Positions 28,832-38,589 of a stretch of DNA of 64,000 nt are shown piece after piece. The notes under the pieces are model-generated. The model was given only the letters and a program-made list of their open reading frames with translations, did not search any database and was not told where the DNA came from. The number at the start of each line of letters is the position of its first letter. Within the stretch, counting starts at the first letter, position 1. The stretch is from Methylacidiphilum caldifontis (GTDB lineage: Bacteria > Verrucomicrobiota > Verrucomicrobiia > Methylacidiphilales > Methylacidiphilaceae): contig NZ_CP065957.1 in NCBI RefSeq assembly GCF_017310505.1, positions 62,001 through 126,000 of the forward strand. The letters run 5' to 3'. A program made the translations under genes and the position numbers.

Positions 28832-29698
28832 TTAGAACCGCTCGAGTATTGTAAAGGAGCGTATCCAGCAATCGGATCCCAAATGGGCTTGAGCATGTTG
28901 GATAACCTTTTTCATAAAGAGCGGATCTTCTTTGTCAAAAAGGGCAAAGATTGAACTGCCACTACCGCTCATCAAACACAGTGCAGGGTCAAACTGATTT
29001 TGAAGCCAATTTTTAACCGTAGGCAACCAGAGATACTTGGAAAATACAGGTTCTTCAAGGTCGTTGAGAGGTTGATCGATTTCATGAGTCAAAGAGGAGC
29101 TAATAAGACCTTTTTGGCGGAATTCCGCATAGGTTTTATAAGCCCATGGAGTACTAACAGGAAAGCCTGGATAGATTAAAAGACCCTGGGTTGGATAGGG
29201 AAGGGGGAGGGCTACAGAATTAAGGATTTCTCCGCGTCCAGTGCATAAGGCGGGTTTTCTGAAAAGAAAGAAAGGCACATCACTGCCGAGCTGAGCCGCT
29301 AAACGAAAAAGATTGTCCATGCTATCTTCTATGGAGAGCAGCGTTTTCAAAGAAGTGAGGACGGCAGCTGCATCACTACTCCCTCCTCCAAGACCTGCTC
29401 CGGGGGGAATAATCTTGGTAAGCTTTATCCTCAAGCCTATTTTCAGCTTATAATGGGATAAAAAAAGGAGAGCAGCTTTAAGTGCAAGATTTGAGGAGTC
29501 CTTGGGAACGTCAAAATCCCCAGTTGTTTCGAACTCTATGCCCTTAGGGAGAAGCTCGATTTCGATCTTATCCCCAATAGATATTGGAGCCATCAGTGTG
29601 CGAAGTTCATGATATCCATCTTTTCTTTTTTCTAGAATGCGAAGTCCTAGATTGATTTTTGCTGGAGCAAAGCTATTAATATAATTTAAAGTACTCAT
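28832..29698 (-). CDS. ispE: 4-diphosphocytidyl-2-C-methyl-D-erythritol kinase
   Basis: A 288-residue GHMP kinase of the MEP isoprenoid pathway. FAPAKINLGLRI at the N-terminus and IPPGAGLGGGSSDAAAVL (ATP loop, about residues 98-115) are diagnostic, as is the C-terminal LMSGSGSSIFALF. The ATG at 29696-29698 overlaps the start codon of the divergent pyrF gene; no other start fits, because family identity begins at residue 10. Confidence 0.94.
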   Translation of the reverse strand: MSTLNYINSFAPAKINLGLRILEKRKDGYHELRTLMAPISIGDKIEIELLPKGIEFETTGDFDVPKDSSNLALKAALLFLSHYKLKIGLRIKLTKIIPPGAGLGGGSSDAAAVLTSLKTLLSIEDSMDNLFRLAAQLGSDVPFFLFRKPALCTGRGEILNSVALPLPYPTQGLLIYPGFPVSTPWAYKTYAEFRQKGLISSSLTHEIDQPLNDLEEPVFSKYLWLPTVKNWLQNQFDPALCLMSGSGSSIFALFDKEDPLFMKKVIQHAQAHLGSDCWIRSFTILERF

Positions 29699-30389
29699 GT
29701 ATTTAAAACCGATAGTAGCTCTGGATCTATCTGAACCTTCCGAAGCTCTTCAACTTGTTTCACTTTTAAGGCCGCAAATTGATTTTTTCAAGGTAGGTAG
29801 TCAGCTTTTCTTGGCTGGAGGAGCCGACGTAGTAAGAAAAATCATCGACAGTGGTGCTGATGTATTTCTTGATCTTAAATTTCACGATATTCCCAAAACT
29901 GTTTTTAGAGCTGTCCGTGAAGCTGTCAAGCTTAAAGTAAAATTTACGACCGTTCATATCTTTGGAGGGCGTGCGATGCTTAAGGAAGCCCTTGAAGCTG
30001 CTTCAGGAAGTTATACAGAGGTTCTAGGGGTAACGGTTCTTACGAGCATGGATAGCTCTGAGTTGGAGAGCCTAGGTGTTGTCCATCCCTTGGAAGAAGA
30101 GGTTTTGTTATTGACCCGGTTGGCTTTGGATGCAGGGCTTAGGGGAATAGTCTGTTCAGGTCGAGAACTGCCTGCTTTAAGTAAAATGGAAAAAAGAGCA
30201 TCGATTGTTGTGGTTCCTGGTATTCGATGGAAAGGAACGGCTCATTATGATCAAAAAAGGACAATAGAGCCAAAGGAGGCCAAACAGTGGGGAGCAACCC
30301 ATATTGTTGTGGGTAGACCCTTATTGGATGCCGTCGATAAAGTAGGATTGGTGCGAAAATTGCTTTGTGAATTAAATGAGATAAATTGA
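29697..30389 (+). CDS. pyrF: Orotidine 5'-phosphate decarboxylase
   Basis: A 230-residue TIM-barrel enzyme that makes UMP. It has PIVALDLSEPSEAL, the catalytic DLKFHDIPKTV motif (about residues 61-71), VPGIRW and the phosphate-binding VVGRPLLDA. Length matches the subfamily 1 enzyme. The start codon overlaps that of ispE on the other strand (CATG at 29696-29699), so its promoter must lie inside ispE. The proteasome operon starts 70 bp downstream. Confidence 0.94.
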   Translation: MYLKPIVALDLSEPSEALQLVSLLRPQIDFFKVGSQLFLAGGADVVRKIIDSGADVFLDLKFHDIPKTVFRAVREAVKLKVKFTTVHIFGGRAMLKEALEAASGSYTEVLGVTVLTSMDSSELESLGVVHPLEEEVLLLTRLALDAGLRGIVCSGRELPALSKMEKRASIVVVPGIRWKGTAHYDQKRTIEPKEAKQWGATHIVVGRPLLDAVDKVGLVRKLLCELNEIN

Positions 30390-30458: not shown

Positions 30459-32147
30459 ATGGCGAAAAAACCAAAAGGCAACGCAATGAGGGATGAGGCT
30501 ATGACTTTTGATAAACTTGATTCGCTGTCAACATTACAAATTGTTGATCTTTTAGGGAAATCATTGATTAATGATGCTTATAGCAGGGAAGCCTTTTTCT
30601 ATTTAAGAAAAAGGGTAGGAGATCTTGAAGAGACATGCGAGAAAGCAAGAGAAGCAATAGAAAAGCTTAATGAAGCTGTGGATAAACTGTCCTCACCGGC
30701 TAATCGTGTGGGGACACTATTAGACCTCCCTAAAAGCGATGTTGGACTGGTAGCTCAAGGAGGCTCAGAATTTTTTTGTTTAATTGATCCGCGATTAAAG
30801 GGAGAGACGCTTCTCATCGGGACCAGGGTTTTGTTAAACGAAGCCTATGCTATTGTGGGCGATCTTGGTTTTGATGCTTCGGGCATTATTGTGAAGATTC
30901 TAGATGTTCTTCCTGACAACCGGTTAAGGATAAGTCATGAGGGTAGTTTTGGAAATTTCATTGTGATTCGTTCTTCACCATTGATGAAAGAACGGCTAAA
31001 ACCTGGTTTGGAAATTAGGTTAGATCCCTCTCATCGTGTGGCGATCGAGGTTGTAAAATCAACCAAGACCTCTTCAAAAGTTCTCGAAAGGGTACCTGAA
31101 CTTCCTTGGGAGAAAGTGGGGGGACAAAAGCAGGCGATTGAAGCGATCAAAGATGCTGTGGAACTTCCCTTTCTTTATGCCGATATTTTTGCTAAGTACA
31201 AGCATAACGTACCTAAAGGATTTCTGCTTTATGGCCCTCCAGGTTGTGGTAAGACTCTTATTGGCAAAGCTACCGCTTACAACCTGACTAAGAAGCTGCG
31301 TGAGAAGACGGGTGAAGATAGACGAGAATATTTCATGCATATCAAGGGTCCTGAGATCCTCAACATGTGGGTAGGTGAGTCGGAAAGGCAGGTCAGGGAA
31401 ATTTTTGAACAAGCCAGGGAACTTTCCAAAGAAGATTATATTCCTTTTATTTTTATCGACGAGGCCGAATCGATTTTAGGCACACGGAGAGCGGGTAGGT
31501 TCAATAGCATTTTAAATACGCTTGTACCGATGTTTTGTGCAGAAATGGATGGTATCGAATCGATGAGGCAGGCGGTCATTATCCTGGCTTCGAATAGAGC
31601 TGATTTAATCGATCCGGCAATTCTTAGGCCAGGAAGAATAGATAGGAAAATCAAGGTCAATAGACCGGGCAAAGAAGAAGCCAAAGAGATCTTCCGCATC
31701 TATTTGACCGAAGATTTGCCCTATGAATCTGCTCTTGTGGAGCAGTTTGGAGGGGATATTAAAAAGGTTGTAGACTTTCTTGTAGAAAAGGTTGTCGAGG
31801 AACAGTATGCCCGCAGCGACCATAATCAATTTCTTGAGGTTACTTTGAGAAGCGGAAGAAGAGAATACCTATATAGGGGTGATCTGAATAGTGGAGCTAT
31901 CATCGCTTCAGTTGTAGAAAGAGCTAAGAGCATGGCGATAAAAAGAACAATTGCTGATCCTTCTCAGGGTGGCATAAAACTTGAAGACCTGCTTTGTGCT
32001 CTTGAAGAGGAGTATCTTGAAAATGATATATTTCCTCCGACAGATATTACAGAGGATTGGTTGAAGCTTGTCGATTATGACCCACAGAATGTGGTCAAGC
32101 TTTCTCCGATTATGCCTCGCAAAAAAGGAGTTTCTGCTGTAGTGTAG
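30459..32147 (+). CDS. mpa: Proteasome-activating AAA ATPase (Mpa/ARC)
   Basis: A 562-residue ring ATPase that binds pupylated proteins, unfolds them and feeds the 20S core. An N-terminal coiled coil (residues about 45-78, KRVGDLEETCEKAREAIEKL) should capture Pup. Two OB folds follow to about 210. The AAA domain has Walker A GPPGCGKT (259-266) and Walker B FIFIDEAES (Asp334, Glu335), and ASNRADLIDPAILRPGRIDRK as sensor/arginine-finger region. The C-terminus ends GVSAVV and lacks the penultimate-Tyr gate-opening motif of actinobacterial Mpa. First gene of the pupylation operon. Confidence 0.93.
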   Translation: MAKKPKGNAMRDEAMTFDKLDSLSTLQIVDLLGKSLINDAYSREAFFYLRKRVGDLEETCEKAREAIEKLNEAVDKLSSPANRVGTLLDLPKSDVGLVAQGGSEFFCLIDPRLKGETLLIGTRVLLNEAYAIVGDLGFDASGIIVKILDVLPDNRLRISHEGSFGNFIVIRSSPLMKERLKPGLEIRLDPSHRVAIEVVKSTKTSSKVLERVPELPWEKVGGQKQAIEAIKDAVELPFLYADIFAKYKHNVPKGFLLYGPPGCGKTLIGKATAYNLTKKLREKTGEDRREYFMHIKGPEILNMWVGESERQVREIFEQARELSKEDYIPFIFIDEAESILGTRRAGRFNSILNTLVPMFCAEMDGIESMRQAVIILASNRADLIDPAILRPGRIDRKIKVNRPGKEEAKEIFRIYLTEDLPYESALVEQFGGDIKKVVDFLVEKVVEEQYARSDHNQFLEVTLRSGRREYLYRGDLNSGAIIASVVERAKSMAIKRTIADPSQGGIKLEDLLCALEEEYLENDIFPPTDITEDWLKLVDYDPQNVVKLSPIMPRKKGVSAVV

Positions 32148-32158
32148 TAAGGAGTGTT

Positions 32159-33715
32159 TTGAGTCTTATGGAAAAAAAGAGGCTTATGCCCTGGTCAGTG
32201 TATTTTGGGTTGGAAACTGAGTTTGGCATTTCTGTTTTAGAAAATGCCGATATCGATGTCGTTGAAGAATCGATCCATCTTGTACGTTCGGCATCCCAAT
32301 TGGGCAGTCCAAACCTTTGGGATTATACGAAAGAAGATCCTCATCAGGATGCCAGAGGGTTCAGGGCTAAGGAGTTGCGACAGGATGAGGATGAGGCTAA
32401 TTTTTTCTCTCAGGATCGACAGCGTCCTTACAGTTTTGAAGAGATAAAAAGCGATTTTGTTCTGCGCAACGGAGCTAGGCTTTATAACGATCATACCCAT
32501 CCGGAATATTCAACAGCGGAATGTTCAACATTGATTGAACTGGTTGCCCAAGACAAAGCGGGAGAGAGGATATTGGAAGAATGTGCCAAAGCGGCCAGCA
32601 AAAAAAGACATCATACCGTCTGTATGTATAAGAATAATACAGACTTTGCTGGTCACAGTTATGGCTGTCATGAAAACTACCTTATTCCTCGGTTAATACC
32701 CTGGGATAGACTCGTTGAGGGTATGCTTCCCTTTTTAATTACCCGGCAAATTTATGCAGGTGCTGGGAAGCTTGGATGGGAAAGAGAAGATCATGGGATG
32801 CCGGGGGGTTATCAGATATCCCAGCGAGCCGATTTTTTTACAGAACTCGTCGGGATCGATACCATGAACCGTCGGCCTATCATTAATACCCGGGATGAAC
32901 CTCATGCTAATCCCAAGCTCTATAGGAGATTTCATGTGATCCTGGGGGATGCGAATCTATCAGAGTTTTCTACTTGGCTTAAAGTGGGTTCAACGGCTCT
33001 TGTGCTGGAAGCTCTGCAATACGAAAGAATCCCTAAGAAGTTCTTTTTGGCTGATCCTTTGTTTGCACATCGGAGCATATCACGGGATCAGAAATTCCGG
33101 TGGGAAATTGAACTTGCCCAGGGTGGAAGGACCACAGCTATTGAATTGCAGCACGAATATGCAGATTGGGTAGCCCGGTATGTGGATCTCGATCACCCCG
33201 AAAAGGAAAAAGTTTGGAAGTCATGGAAAGAGACTCTTGACAAGCTGCTTAAAGATCCCTATGCATTAAAAGACAGGCTTGATTGGATGGCAAAGTTCTG
33301 GTTACTTCAGACTTTTAAAGAAGATCAAAACCTCTCCTGGGAAGATCCCTGGCTTCAAAGCTTGGATCTAGAGTATCACCTTGTTGATAGAAACCGTGGC
33401 CTCTTTTATGCTTTAGAATCAGCGGGAGATATCATCCGTGTTACGACCGATGAGGATATATGCCAAGCTATACAGCAACCTCCTTCCTCTTCCCGGGCAT
33501 TTATTCGAGGGAAGTTCATACAGCGGTTTTCAAAAGATCTCATCAATGTTCAGTGGGATTATATTGCATTTAGGTTTTGTGGTCAGAGCTATCGGTTAGA
33601 TCTTGCTTCAGCCTTTCCGGGAGTCGATCTTGAAACTTATTGTGAAGTGATTGATAAAGCAAAGAATGTGGGAGATGTTGTGAGGAACTTGAATTTAAAA
33701 CCGATGGGAAATTAA
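32159..33715 (+). CDS. dop: Pup depupylase/deamidase-like protein Dop
   Basis: About 518 residues from the TTG at 32159, which has AAGGAG 4 nt upstream; an ATG at 32168 is the alternative. It has the carboxylate-amine-ligase fold shared by Dop and PafA: FGLETEFGIS with catalytic acids, then NGARLYNDHTHPEYSTAE, the Dop version (PafA has DMGHVEY). It also has NNTDFAGHSYGCHENYL, INTRDEPHA and LKVGSTALVLEAL. Residues about 35-90 correspond to the Dop-specific loop. Because Pup here already ends in Glu, deamidation is not needed, so its work is likely removal of Pup from targets. Confidence 0.92.
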   Translation: MSLMEKKRLMPWSVYFGLETEFGISVLENADIDVVEESIHLVRSASQLGSPNLWDYTKEDPHQDARGFRAKELRQDEDEANFFSQDRQRPYSFEEIKSDFVLRNGARLYNDHTHPEYSTAECSTLIELVAQDKAGERILEECAKAASKKRHHTVCMYKNNTDFAGHSYGCHENYLIPRLIPWDRLVEGMLPFLITRQIYAGAGKLGWEREDHGMPGGYQISQRADFFTELVGIDTMNRRPIINTRDEPHANPKLYRRFHVILGDANLSEFSTWLKVGSTALVLEALQYERIPKKFFLADPLFAHRSISRDQKFRWEIELAQGGRTTAIELQHEYADWVARYVDLDHPEKEKVWKSWKETLDKLLKDPYALKDRLDWMAKFWLLQTFKEDQNLSWEDPWLQSLDLEYHLVDRNRGLFYALESAGDIIRVTTDEDICQAIQQPPSSSRAFIRGKFIQRFSKDLINVQWDYIAFRFCGQSYRLDLASAFPGVDLETYCEVIDKAKNVGDVVRNLNLKPMGN

Positions 33716-33736
33716 TTTTTGTTAAAATGAAAAAAA

Positions 33737-33743
33737 AGGAGGT
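33737..33743 (+). promoter_or_regulatory. Strong ribosome-binding site deciding the pup start
   Basis: AGGAGGT lies 4 nt upstream of the ATG at 33748. This is the best Shine-Dalgarno sequence in the proteasome operon and points to the 61-residue form of Pup rather than the 68-residue frame from 33727. Confidence 0.85.
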
Positions 33744-33747
33744 AACT

Positions 33748-33933
33748 ATGCTCATGACTGAGCAAGGACAAAAAAACAAGCAGATGATTCCTTCTCCTGG
33801 TCCTGGTGGAGGTAGTGGTCCTGGACCTCAAGCTCCAAAGGTAGAAAAACCCAATACGGAGGAAATCCTTAAACGGATGCGCAAGGTTGACCCCGATCAG
33901 GCGCGCCGCTACAGGCAGAGGACTGGAGAGTGA
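33748..33933 (+). CDS. pup: Prokaryotic ubiquitin-like protein (Pup/UBact)
   Basis: A 61-residue disordered modifier. The N-terminal half is Pro/Gly-rich; the C-terminal half (NTEEILKRMRKVDPDQARRY) is the helix bound by Mpa, and the protein ends in Gly-Glu. The final Glu would be linked to target lysines by PafA. Actinobacterial Pup usually ends Gly-Gly-Gln or Gly-Gly-Glu; here the preceding residue is Thr (RTGE). Gram-negative homologues of this kind have been named UBact. The stop overlaps the prcB start as GTGA. Short length plus position between dop and prcB make the call firm. Confidence 0.93.
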   Translation: MLMTEQGQKNKQMIPSPGPGGGSGPGPQAPKVEKPNTEEILKRMRKVDPDQARRYRQRTGE

Positions 33934-34763
33934 ATGAAATAATTCAAAAGGGGATTGATCCTCTCCCTATAATTGGGGACAAGTGGAGTTTGAATGGGGA
34001 TTTTATCTCCTTGCTAAAGGAGAAAGGATTGACTTGTACCATTCCTAGGGTTATGGACAGTCCTCCAAAATCCCTATCAACAACTCCCTGCATTGAGTCA
34101 ACAACGATTCTTGCTTTTTATTATAGGGATGGAGTCATCGTTGCTGGGGATAGAAGGGCTACAGCGGGCAATTTGGTTATTCATGAAAGAGCAGAAAAAG
34201 TCATTTCTATTGACCGAAATACTATTTTAGCTGTAGCAGGAACACCGGCCACGGCTTTTGAGATAGCTCGTGTTCTTCAACATTCCTTTGAGTTTTATAG
34301 AAGAAGCCAGCTTCAACCTCTCAGTGTGGCTGCCAAAGTAAGAATGGTGAGCAAGCTCCTTAAAGACAATTTAGCGTTGTCCCTACAGGGTATCGGTATC
34401 GTTATACCTCTGCTTGCCTTGAGTGATCCCTTTGGTAAGGAAAAACCAACAATCTATTTTTATGATGCCTTGGGAGCTCAGTTTCAGACGGTGGATTTTG
34501 CAGTTTCAGGTTCTGGTTCTCCTGCTGTCCGAAGTATTCTACAATATATTAATAGGTGGAGTGGAAAACCGACGGTAGAAAGAGAAGAGGAAGAGTCTAT
34601 ACAACTTGCACTTCAACTTCTTGACATTGCTGCAGAATCGGATACAGCAACAGGGGGAGTCAATCGAAGGACTAAAATTTATCCCCAGGTCAAACTTTTG
34701 AAAGAAAGTGGAGTTGTTTCTGTTCCGGAGGAAAAATTAGAACAATTATTTAAAAGCACCTAA
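33930..34763 (+). CDS. prcB: 20S proteasome beta subunit
   Basis: A 277-residue threonine protease. A propeptide of about 57 residues is followed by TTILAFYYRDGVIVAGDRRAT; Thr58 would become the N-terminal nucleophile after self-cleavage, with Asp and Lys partners in GDRRAT and ERAEKVISI. The residue before the cleavage site is Ser (STT) instead of the usual Gly. GSGSPAVRSIL is the conserved SGS region. The start is a GTG overlapping the pup stop with poor spacing to GGAG; an ATG at 34053 would give a shorter propeptide. Confidence 0.93.
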   Translation: MNEIIQKGIDPLPIIGDKWSLNGDFISLLKEKGLTCTIPRVMDSPPKSLSTTPCIESTTILAFYYRDGVIVAGDRRATAGNLVIHERAEKVISIDRNTILAVAGTPATAFEIARVLQHSFEFYRRSQLQPLSVAAKVRMVSKLLKDNLALSLQGIGIVIPLLALSDPFGKEKPTIYFYDALGAQFQTVDFAVSGSGSPAVRSILQYINRWSGKPTVEREEEESIQLALQLLDIAAESDTATGGVNRRTKIYPQVKLLKESGVVSVPEEKLEQLFKST

Positions 34764-35055
34764 AAGAACAGATCCATTTCCTTGGTCGTTTCAAATTCCA
34801 ATTTTTTCTAGAACTGAGAAAAAAAGAATGGATAAGACTTTTTTCTCTCTGTATAAGTTGGTTTTCCTTAGGTGTTGATGTTGATTTTTTGTTCGTCTTG
34901 TGAAGAAGAAAAATAAGTTTTTTGCTTTTTAAATTTAAAATCATAGAAATTTCATGGTATGCCCTCTTTCTCTTTTGTATTTTTGAGAGGCAACATTAAA
35001 GTGTTTTATTCTCTGGTCAATAAGATAAGCTTAATAAGGAAAAGGAGTAAAAATT

Positions 35056-35811
35056 GTGATTGAAGAGCCATACCGTTGGCTTGAAGCCATTTCGAATCGA
35101 AGGGAATATATTGAAGATCAGCTCGGTGGGGCTGCTCCAGTCGTGCTGGTTAATGGAGAGCCGGGTATAGTTATTGCGACAAAAAAAGCGGGTACCCCCA
35201 AGATATATGAAATCTATGATCATCTGGCTATGGGCTGTCTTGGTCATCCTGCCGATATGGAAAAGATCAGGCAGTCGGCTATAGAGGTCGCTCACTTAGA
35301 GGGTTTTACTCGTTCTAGGCAAGATGTTTCGGCTCGGAGGATCGTTGCTTATAGTTTAGCTGTTGCACTCAAAAATGCTTTTGAACAGATTTTTTCTGCT
35401 CCTTTTCTTTTTCGGTGTTTGTTCATTGAACTCGGGGAGAGGATTGAAAAAGATGAAGGTTGGACAGTGGATTATGACGGCAGCTATATAACAACTTCAG
35501 GAAGAGAGTTGTCGAGGGGACTGCTAATTAGTGGCAAAAAGGAGGTTATGGAGAAATTTATCAAGGAAAGAGAGGCTTTAAAGCTTCAAGAATTTAAAAC
35601 CCTTAAGGAAATGGTTGAGTATGCGATAAAACTCATATTATGGGCTTCTGAGCTATTGACTTCTCATGAATCTTTAGATGCGGTTATAAATCGATCCTTC
35701 AAAGAAATCTTATCTGGCTCTGCTCAATCTGACTTCGAAGTCGTATTTTTGGATAGAACTTTATATGAGCAGCAGAGTTTTACTGCCCTTGGACCTGAAA
35801 TGTGGAGTTGA
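35056..35811 (+). CDS. prcA: 20S proteasome alpha subunit
   Basis: A 251-residue structural subunit of the outer rings, starting GTG with AAGGAG about 8 nt upstream. The gate region EEPYRWLEAISNRREYIEDQ is followed by the strands GIVIATKKAG and KIYEIYDHLAMGCLGHPADM, then TRSRQDVSARRIVAYSLA, as in actinobacterial PrcA. It has no catalytic Thr. A 292-bp spacer separates it from prcB; I see no clear terminator in it, so it may still be one transcript. It pairs with PrcB to form the core that Mpa feeds. Confidence 0.9.
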   Translation: MIEEPYRWLEAISNRREYIEDQLGGAAPVVLVNGEPGIVIATKKAGTPKIYEIYDHLAMGCLGHPADMEKIRQSAIEVAHLEGFTRSRQDVSARRIVAYSLAVALKNAFEQIFSAPFLFRCLFIELGERIEKDEGWTVDYDGSYITTSGRELSRGLLISGKKEVMEKFIKEREALKLQEFKTLKEMVEYAIKLILWASELLTSHESLDAVINRSFKEILSGSAQSDFEVVFLDRTLYEQQSFTALGPEMWS

Positions 35812-35876
35812 ATGAACAAGATTAAAAAAGAGAATTGTAAGGAATTAATTTTTGGAATAGAGGATTGAAATTTCCG

Positions 35877-37265
35877 ATGAGACGTATAGTTGGCATAGAA
35901 ACGGAGTATGGATGTCTTTTTAACCAGGGAACTGAGTTATTATCTGTACCCGAGCAAGTTAAAGATTATCTTATTCTAGAAAAAAAAATAGGGCTAATCG
36001 ATATCCATGATAGGGATTACGATGAGCCGGCAGGGAACGGGGGTTTTCTTTTCAATGGCGGAAGGCTTTATATTGACATGGGCCATGTTGAGTATTGTAC
36101 ATCGGAGTGCAAGAATTTAGCTGACCTTGTTGCTTCAGATTATGCCGGAGAAAAATTGCTCCAAATGGCTCTGGATGAAATGGGGCTGAGTACAAAGGTA
36201 TCGTTTATTAAGAATAATATTGATCACTATACAGGGGCGACGTTTGGCTGTCATGAAAATTACTTGATCCACCGTAATGCGCCGTTGACTCAGGAGAACG
36301 TGGATTCATTACTTGCTTTTTTAGCTATAAGGGGATTGATGGTAGGCAGTGGGCGTGTAGGTAGTGTGTTAACATCAAGGAAATACAATAAAAAAGAGGA
36401 GAAAACAGTCCCTTTTCAGATCATGCAGCGTGCGGATTATATCCAGACAGAAATTTATGAATGGGTTCAATTCAACAGGGCTTTGATTAATGCAAGGGAC
36501 GAGCCGCTGAGTGATCCTTGTCGGTTTCGCAGGCTTCATCTTCTGCTTGGCGATTCGAATATACTGCCCTTTTCACAAGCTCTCAAAGTGGGATCAACAG
36601 CTCTTGTTTTGGATCTGCTCGAATGTCGAAAATTGCCTCGAATCGCATTTGCTGACCCTGTTAAAACCATGAGACAGGTTTCCCATGCAGCGAGCCCGGA
36701 TTGCTTGGTTGAACTGGCTAACGGTAGGAAATGGTCTCCAGTAGAGGTTTTATCAGAGTATTTTCTTCAAGCCCAGCAATTGGATGAAAAAGATGAAGAT
36801 GCTCATTGGATTTTGGGAGCTTGGGAAGAAGTACTTGAAGGCCTTTCTGGAAACCAGGAGAAACTTATTGGCAAAATAGATTGGATAACCAAAAAATTTC
36901 TCCTGGAGTCCTTTTGCCTGAAAGAAAACATCGCATGGGACGATCCCTGGCTAGATAGCCTTGACTTGGAGTATCATCAAATTAATAGGAAAAAGAACTT
37001 TGTTTGGCTTCTTCCTAATACTAGTTATGAGGACCTGAAACTACCAGGCTGGCCAAAGACCAATTTTATAGCGGATCCTCCTCGAAATACGCGGGCTTAT
37101 GTCCGCAGCCTTCTAATGAAACAACTTGCTAAAGAAAAGGTTTCCTATGTTATCGATTGGGATTATGTTCAAATAGGCAATTCTACGTTTTATTCCTTGG
37201 ATGATCCTTTTGCTTCGGTTTTGCCGAAAACCTCTAAGAGAGCTTTTTTTGATACTATAATATAA
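35877..37265 (+). CDS. pafA: Pup--protein ligase PafA
   Basis: About 462 residues from the ATG at 35877 (AGAGGA upstream); the TTG at 35865 is too near the ribosome site. It joins the C-terminal Glu of Pup to target lysines using ATP. MRRIVGIETEYG carries the catalytic acids; GRLYIDMGHVEYCTSEC is the PafA form that separates it from Dop; NNIDHYTGATFGCHENYL, INARDEPLSDP and LKVGSTALVLDLL are shared ligase-fold motifs. Dop and PafA are separated by pup and the core subunits, and ffh follows after 13 bp. Confidence 0.93.
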   Translation: MRRIVGIETEYGCLFNQGTELLSVPEQVKDYLILEKKIGLIDIHDRDYDEPAGNGGFLFNGGRLYIDMGHVEYCTSECKNLADLVASDYAGEKLLQMALDEMGLSTKVSFIKNNIDHYTGATFGCHENYLIHRNAPLTQENVDSLLAFLAIRGLMVGSGRVGSVLTSRKYNKKEEKTVPFQIMQRADYIQTEIYEWVQFNRALINARDEPLSDPCRFRRLHLLLGDSNILPFSQALKVGSTALVLDLLECRKLPRIAFADPVKTMRQVSHAASPDCLVELANGRKWSPVEVLSEYFLQAQQLDEKDEDAHWILGAWEEVLEGLSGNQEKLIGKIDWITKKFLLESFCLKENIAWDDPWLDSLDLEYHQINRKKNFVWLLPNTSYEDLKLPGWPKTNFIADPPRNTRAYVRSLLMKQLAKEKVSYVIDWDYVQIGNSTFYSLDDPFASVLPKTSKRAFFDTII

Positions 37266-37278
37266 ATGGGTAAGGGTT

Positions 37279-38589
37279 ATGTTAGAACTTTTGCAGCAAA
37301 AATTACAGTCCCTCTTTAAAAATCTTAGAGGATATGGGAAGCTCAGCGAGGAGAATATCTCTGGAGCGATAAGAGAAATAAGGCTAGCTCTATTAGCCTC
37401 TGATGTTCACATCCAGGTTGTCAAAGAGATATGCGAAGAAGTAAAACAAAAAGCTTTAGGGACGAAAGTGTTGGAGAGCATTCGACCTGGAGATCAATTT
37501 ATAAAGATTTTTCATGACGAGCTCATCGAGTATCTTGCTGCAGATAAAACGGGGCTTTGTTCAAGCCGTCCTCTGAAGATATTGCTGTGTGGTTTAAATG
37601 GATCGGGAAAAACAACGACAGCCGCAAAACTCGCTTTGTGGTGTAAAAAAAATCGAGAAAGGGTTGGTTTGGTTGCTGCGGATCTAACAAGACCTGCGGC
37701 GATCGAGCAACTTTCAAAACTTGCTTCTTTAGTGGGCATTACTGTTTATGCACCTAAAGAATCCGAAAGGCTTGATGATTTTCTTATAAGGGTTGACTCC
37801 CAGTCTGTACAAGATAGGCTCTCTGTAATCATATATGATACTGCCGGTAGGTTGGACCTTGATGAAGAACTTTTGGAAGAATTACGTTATCTCCATGAGC
37901 TTGTTTGTCCCCAGGAAGTGTTGATCGTTATTGATTCAGCCACAGGACAAAAAGGGGTTGATGTGGTGAGGGCTTTTAAGGAAAAGATTCCTCTTACAGG
38001 ATTGATTCTTTCAAAATTTGATGGTGATGCTCGAGGAGGAGCAGCTTTTTCTGTGAAAAAGGTAACGGGTGTTCCCATTCTTTTTATGGGAACAGGAGAG
38101 AAGATAGAATCGTTAGAAGTTTTTCGGCCGGAAAGGTTAGTGGATAGATTGTTTGGATTTGGAGATATTGTTTCTTTGGTCGAAAAGGTAGAAGCTCAAG
38201 TCAAGGAAGAATCAATTGCTGAAATCGAAAAGAAGATCCGTTCCAAGCAGTTTGGCCTGGATGATTTTCTTGTCCAGATGCGGATGCTCAAAAAGCTCGG
38301 TCCCCTAGAACAACTTTTTTCCTATCTGCCTCAGTTTCCCGGAAAAGGGCAAATGACGATTGATGATAAAAAGTTAAAGAGAATTGAAGCCATTGTGCTT
38401 TCAATGACTCCTGAGGAAAGAAAAAATCCGGATATTATAAATGGAAAAAGAAAACTTAGGATATCCCGGGGGAGTGGTACAACAGTGGCTGAAATTAACG
38501 AATTTTTGAAAAGATTTGATGCTGTACGTAAAATGATCAAAAAGTTTTCCACCAAAGAGGGATTTAAACTGCCCTTTTTTAAAAACTAA
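37279..38589 (+). CDS. ffh: Signal recognition particle protein Ffh
   Basis: A 436-residue SRP54 GTPase that delivers membrane proteins to the translocon. It has the N domain (KNLRGYGKLSEENISGAIRE), the G domain with GLNGSGKTTTAAKLA, DTAGRLDLDEELLEEL, SKFDGDARGGAAFS, and an M domain (residues about 300-436) with SRGSGTTVAEINEFLKRF and basic C-terminus. First gene of the ffh-rpsP-trmD-rplS-rnhB-yraN run. The SRP RNA gene is not in the window. Confidence 0.95.
   Translation: MLELLQQKLQSLFKNLRGYGKLSEENISGAIREIRLALLASDVHIQVVKEICEEVKQKALGTKVLESIRPGDQFIKIFHDELIEYLAADKTGLCSSRPLKILLCGLNGSGKTTTAAKLALWCKKNRERVGLVAADLTRPAAIEQLSKLASLVGITVYAPKESERLDDFLIRVDSQSVQDRLSVIIYDTAGRLDLDEELLEELRYLHELVCPQEVLIVIDSATGQKGVDVVRAFKEKIPLTGLILSKFDGDARGGAAFSVKKVTGVPILFMGTGEKIESLEVFRPERLVDRLFGFGDIVSLVEKVEAQVKEESIAEIEKKIRSKQFGLDDFLVQMRMLKKLGPLEQLFSYLPQFPGKGQMTIDDKKLKRIEAIVLSMTPEERKNPDIINGKRKLRISRGSGTTVAEINEFLKRFDAVRKMIKKFSTKEGFKLPFFKN

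Follow-up and report, generated by a model that had tools for sequence, protein, structure and literature searches.

Docking through a penultimate Tyr is the described rule for mycobacterial proteasomal ATPases and for HbYX activators elsewhere. In the cryo-EM structure from M. tuberculosis, the penultimate Tyr of the ATPase Mpa touches Arg26 or Glu119 of the alpha subunit PrcA, the carboxylate of the tail can pair with PrcA Lys52, and the backbone of the Gly with Asp144 (PMC9599533). The genes of the mycobacterial system are arranged with dop ahead of pup, followed by prcB-prcA, and with pafA downstream (PMC3511204). The proteasome genes of Methylacidiphilum infernorum and their neighbors were described in 2008 (PMC2474590), and a Pup ending in G[EQ] was described from Methylacidiphilum in the same year (PMC2588565).

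Six intact, co-directional ORFs at positions 30459-37265 of the window (the whole stretch of 64,000 nucleotides analyzed here; all features below are on its plus strand) encode, in this order, a proteasomal ATPase (ARC/Mpa), Dop, the modifier UBact, PrcB, PrcA and PafA, with intergenic distances of 11, 32, -4, 292 and 53 bp. The operon is flanked by pyrF upstream (29697..30389; NF001273, E 3e-67) and ffh downstream (37279..38589; TIGR00959, E 8e-149) and belongs to a single-contig, 2.25-Mb genome of Methylacidiphilum, a thermophilic and acidophilic methanotroph of the Verrucomicrobiota. All six proteins match the right NCBIfam model, UBact above the curated cut-off and the other five below it, and solved homologs (PDB matches) exist for all five large proteins. 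The earlier note had reported a six-part Pup/UBact-proteasome cluster between these positions in a diderm bacterium; all the parts are indeed present, intact and co-directional, with the Pfam and NCBIfam families that were expected, and the host does belong to a diderm phylum. By analogy with the homologs, from which the activities are extrapolated, we consider it very probable that the locus constitutes a full UBact (Pup-like) operon for tagging and proteasomal degradation. The operon is of a known type, previously reported from the same genus, and UBact is a curated family. Promoter-like and terminator-like sites, counted over the whole operon, show no excess over shuffled sequences. The 292-bp, AT-rich spacer between prcB and prcA (34764..35055) was considered as a hidden gene or regulatory element, and this was rejected because the spacer is poorly conserved between species and contains no terminator-like site.

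UBact is represented in all 13 genomes of the family, in 26 of the 62 genomes of the order (one of these being a weak match below the cut-off), and, above the cut-off, in 9 of the 387 sampled genomes of the phylum. In each of the 9 UBact-carrying genomes that were checked, both Pup_ligase paralogs, the ATPase and at least one proteasome subunit co-occur; an order-mate that lacks UBact has no Pup_ligase paralogs, proteasomal ATPase or proteasome subunits, with only FtsH-like AAA matches. Bacterial and archaeal genomes were also scanned for relatives, and the best 80 of the 326 come mostly from Verrucomicrobiota, along with Poribacteria and a few others. On contigs of sufficient length, UBact loci from several phyla share ATPase-Dop-UBact-PrcB-PrcA-PafA as their standard order. 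The earlier note had contrasted this arrangement, with dop before pup and pafA last, with that of mycobacteria; the order in mycobacteria is the same (PMC3511204), so the purported contrast is wrong. In genomes of the Chthoniobacter/Spartobacteria type (L013, L014, L019, L050, L087), the system is split, with ubact-prcB-prcA kept together and the ATPase, dop and pafA located elsewhere. Several metagenome-assembled genomes titled Klebsiella pneumoniae, Akkermansia muciniphila, Proteobacteria, Betaproteobacteria and Bacteroidetes (L048, L041, L042, L055 and L064) carry UBact operons of the verrucomicrobial type, and some of these are probably mislabeled. A phage-borne copy was considered and dismissed: the sole match in the phage collection, MT835496.1 (L119, an unverified 'Bacteriophage sp.'), resembles a bacterial chromosome. 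This entry contains a Dop-Pup-PafA cluster of the actinobacterial type, with a GGQ Pup.

The 2008 genome paper, for which few other genomes were then available, found the greatest similarity with Actinobacteria (PMC2474590), as would be the case if the operon had been recently transferred from Actinobacteria and had not adapted to its host. We regard such a transfer as highly improbable given the presence of UBact throughout the family, the clustering of PrcB, Dop and PafA with those of other verrucomicrobial UBact loci, and the nature of the modifier, which is UBact and not Pup. The pyrF and ffh flanks, furthermore, are shared by three genera and peculiar to Methylacidiphilaceae, a pattern that favors vertical inheritance within this family.

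The modifier (33748..33933; 59-61 aa) scores well above both curated cut-offs (PF20513, E 1e-22, 79.8 bits against 27.8; NF033388, E 1e-23, 83.3 against 35) and, in the alignment, its C-terminus, ...RYRQRTGE, has the R-T-G-E/Q form of the UBact system. The Pup family, PF05639, is not matched anywhere in the genome, in a search that did retrieve the C. glutamicum positive control, and the identification of the modifier as UBact thus stands. Its start, previously placed at 33727, is corrected to 33748 or 33754, directly 3' of the ribosome-binding site GGAGG (33738..33742, from direct reading of the sequence); the Met at the position of 33754 is invariant in the relatives.

The final codon of ubact, GAG (33928-33930), agrees with the terminal Glu reported before. 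Among 89 UBact ORFs, including a few near-duplicate loci, the last residue is Glu in 45 (GAG in 25, GAA in 20) and Gln in 44 (CAA in 37, CAG in 7), with a minimum of 12 Glu/Gln switches on a tree of 82 PrcB rows; even within the family, the UBact of a sister genus (L012) ends in Gln. The earlier claim that, unlike in mycobacteria, no deamidation is needed therefore holds for the present species but not as a fixed difference, and the deamidation-free state is a trait that switches easily. The Glu-ending variant, PupE, also occurs in actinobacteria (PMC3511204). The repeated switching between Glu and Gln points to a broad retention of the deamidase activity of Dop outside Actinobacteria. The remnant to be sought on modified lysines has to be revised as well: trypsin would cut at ...RQR|TGE and leave Thr-Gly-Glu (+287.11 Da, from residue masses) rather than the proposed Gly-Glu.

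Dop (32159..33715; about 518 aa; PF03136, E 5e-159; PDB Dop, E 3e-108) is a depupylase of the deamidase type. It scores 444 bits with the Dop model TIGR03688 compared to 383 with the PafA model, has the longer, Dop-type insert and clusters with actinobacterial Dop in the tree. PafA, the UBact ligase (35865..37265; 466 aa, with a TTG start; PF03136, E 4e-109), scores almost alike with the NCBIfam models of PafA and Dop. The assignment as a ligase relies on its position in a well-supported clade of its own that consists of ligases from UBact loci, in a tree where the single actinobacterial PafA is on a long branch and does not decide the matter, as well as on a shorter insert ahead of the catalytic Asp and the motif YxDMGHxEY. 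The two linked Pup_ligase paralogs thus fall into separate clades, and the GhExE and catalytic-Asp motifs are intact in both. A role in anti-phage defense was rejected, given that PADLOC produced no match for either Dop or PafA. By homology, PafA would phosphorylate the terminal Glu of UBact on its gamma-carboxylate, at the expense of ATP, and then join UBact to substrate lysines, and Dop would remove the tag and would also deamidate UBact ending in Gln.

PrcB, the beta subunit (33930..34763; PF00227, E 4e-24; TIGR03690, E 2e-43), overlaps UBact by 4 bp and has a 57-aa propeptide, with the codon of the catalytic Thr1 at 34101-34103. The PDB match begins at Thr1 (TTILAF...GDRRAT), and the signature of N-terminal nucleophile hydrolysis, Thr1, Asp17 and Lys33, is present at the correct spacing (TTILAF..., GDRRA, AEKV). 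Near the active-site Ser169 region (in the part from 34101 onward), the motif is DTATGG here, compared with DSATGG or DAATGG in relatives; the T-for-S replacement in ESDTATGG was considered as an active-site change and set aside, being frequent among relatives. PrcA, the alpha subunit (35056..35811; TIGR03691, E 7e-14; Pfam Proteasome, E 5e-6), has a GTG start behind a ribosome-binding site and is divergent in sequence; its AlphaFold2 model has a pLDDT of 94, and the best Foldseek match is M. tuberculosis PrcA (E 1e-14), so that the predicted fold confirms the assignment. The two subunits presumably form a 20S core in which the threaded substrate would be degraded.

The ATPase (30459..32147; 562 aa) is of the ARC/Mpa type, with a coiled coil, tandem OB domains and an AAA domain (TIGR03689, E 2e-138; PF17758, PF16450 and PF00004). 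Its best PDB match is Mpa (E 2e-108), which Foldseek also retrieves (E 2e-40, 39% identity); the overall TM-score to Mpa is low, as would be expected of a flexible, multidomain chain modeled with moderate confidence (pLDDT 78, and below 50 in the C-terminal tail). In the hexamer, the coiled coil of the ATPase would capture the disordered UBact, and the ring would pull the substrate in. The C-terminus, however, is Val-Val (32139..32144, in a tail that reads ...GVSAVV) in place of GQYL or HbYX. We surveyed the tails of 45 complete UBact-type ATPases, which form 23 clusters at 90% identity, and of three ATPases from split loci, a sample without Nitrospirota. None of the 48 has a penultimate Tyr and, with few exceptions, they end in [V/I]-[V/I] (L012-L116, L021, L028, L029); none of the 45 complete ATPases has any aromatic residue in the penultimate position, and the three from split loci also end in VI. 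All 23 clusters have V or I at the very end, and 20 have V or I in the penultimate position as well, where the others carry A, M or T; at positions -3 and -4, neither V nor I ever occurs, and most residues there are small or Arg. The end of the tail is strongly conserved and the linker ahead of it is variable. Two actinobacterial control ATPases, subjected to the same processing, end in GQYL, the controls consisting of these two genomes and the literature. The Tyr-less tail goes unmentioned in the open papers searched and, within that scope, to which the original UBact papers do not belong, it looks unreported.

The alpha subunit has changed at the matching positions. In an alignment of 35 PrcA sequences, Lys49 and Asp141, the equivalents of Lys52 and Asp144, respectively, are invariant (35/35 each), and the position of Glu119 (118 here, a Leu) is occupied by Leu, Ile or Met in all 35. 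Arg is found at the position of Arg26 in only 2 of the 35, within a weakly conserved stretch where the alignment is possibly one residue off. In M. tuberculosis, PrcA E119A seems to block beta processing as well (PMC9599533), so that the Glu119 position may serve more than the contact with Tyr.

The simplest reading of these patterns in the aligned proteins is that the tail would still insert in the alpha pocket, with Val or Ile substituting for Tyr. We are inclined, with some reserve, to think that UBact-type proteasomes employ a Tyr-independent docking code, in which a small-x-[V/I]-[V/I]-COOH tail co-evolved with an alpha pocket that kept the Lys and the Asp while both Tyr-contacting residues were replaced. 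The ATPase would then dock on the alpha ring via its free, Tyr-less C-terminus, with the carboxylate contacting PrcA Lys49, the backbone contacting Asp141, and Val or Ile taking the place of Tyr opposite the Leu or Ile that replaces Glu119; this step is less certain than those of tagging.

Rather than docking, the Tyr-less tail could have another use for a conserved C-terminus, such as capping the beta-grasp domain or binding an as yet unknown adaptor. In Mpa, the beta-grasp domain tucks the tail into the ring (PMC12288473), and Cpa attaches to the 20S core without GQYL (PMC8223512); a change at the Tyr-contact positions of the pocket, with the carboxylate-binding Lys invariant, is nevertheless what would be expected for an inserting free C-terminus, and we consider this alternative rather unlikely. 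Still less probable, in our view, is that the tag is chiefly a regulatory, on/off mark and that the proteasome degrades its substrates via another route, such that the Tyr-less tail would reflect a coupling to the 20S core that is weak or absent. GQYL, which is missing from the tail, is required in mycobacteria (PMC12288473), and some actinobacteria pupylate proteins but have no proteasome (PMC3511204). Yet in genomes whose ATPase, dop and pafA have been relocated (L013, L014, L019), prcB-prcA still directly follows ubact, and uncoupling fits poorly with tail ends that are conserved despite the variable linker and with the invariance of the pocket Lys and Asp. Docking by the Tyr-less tail thus remains our preferred reading. 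If true, it would be a solution distinct from HbYX and GQYL that spans several phyla. The tail carries more weight than the operon itself, in that one class of proteasomes in bacteria apparently dispenses with the docking Tyr while keeping the rest of the pocket. The present analysis contributes a corrected comparison with mycobacteria, a count of the switches between Glu and Gln, and the prediction of Tyr-less docking; the remainder is largely known.

The mycobacterial and actinobacterial Pup-proteasome shares with this locus the homologous ATPase, Dop, PafA, PrcA and PrcB and the gene order (PMC3511204). It differs in the end of the modifier, which is RTGE in UBact here and GGQ or GGE in Pup, as well as in the ATPase, which lacks GQYL here, and in PrcA, which here lacks equivalents of Arg26 and Glu119. 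Bpa/PafE (PF10759) had no match here, in a search in which the positive control was silent as well. With the eukaryotic and archaeal proteasomes of the 26S type, which rely on HbYX, the locus shares the 20S core, the AAA ring and the conserved Lys of the alpha pocket, whereas its tagging chemistry is unrelated to ubiquitin and its ATPase has no penultimate Tyr. The closest counterpart is the UBact system, including the operon of M. infernorum (the Minf_1279-1284 neighborhood), with which the modifier family, all six components and the genus are shared; there is no essential difference between the two, although the Methylacidiphilum species is probably another one, and the Tyr-less ATPase tail is apparently common to the sampled UBact class.
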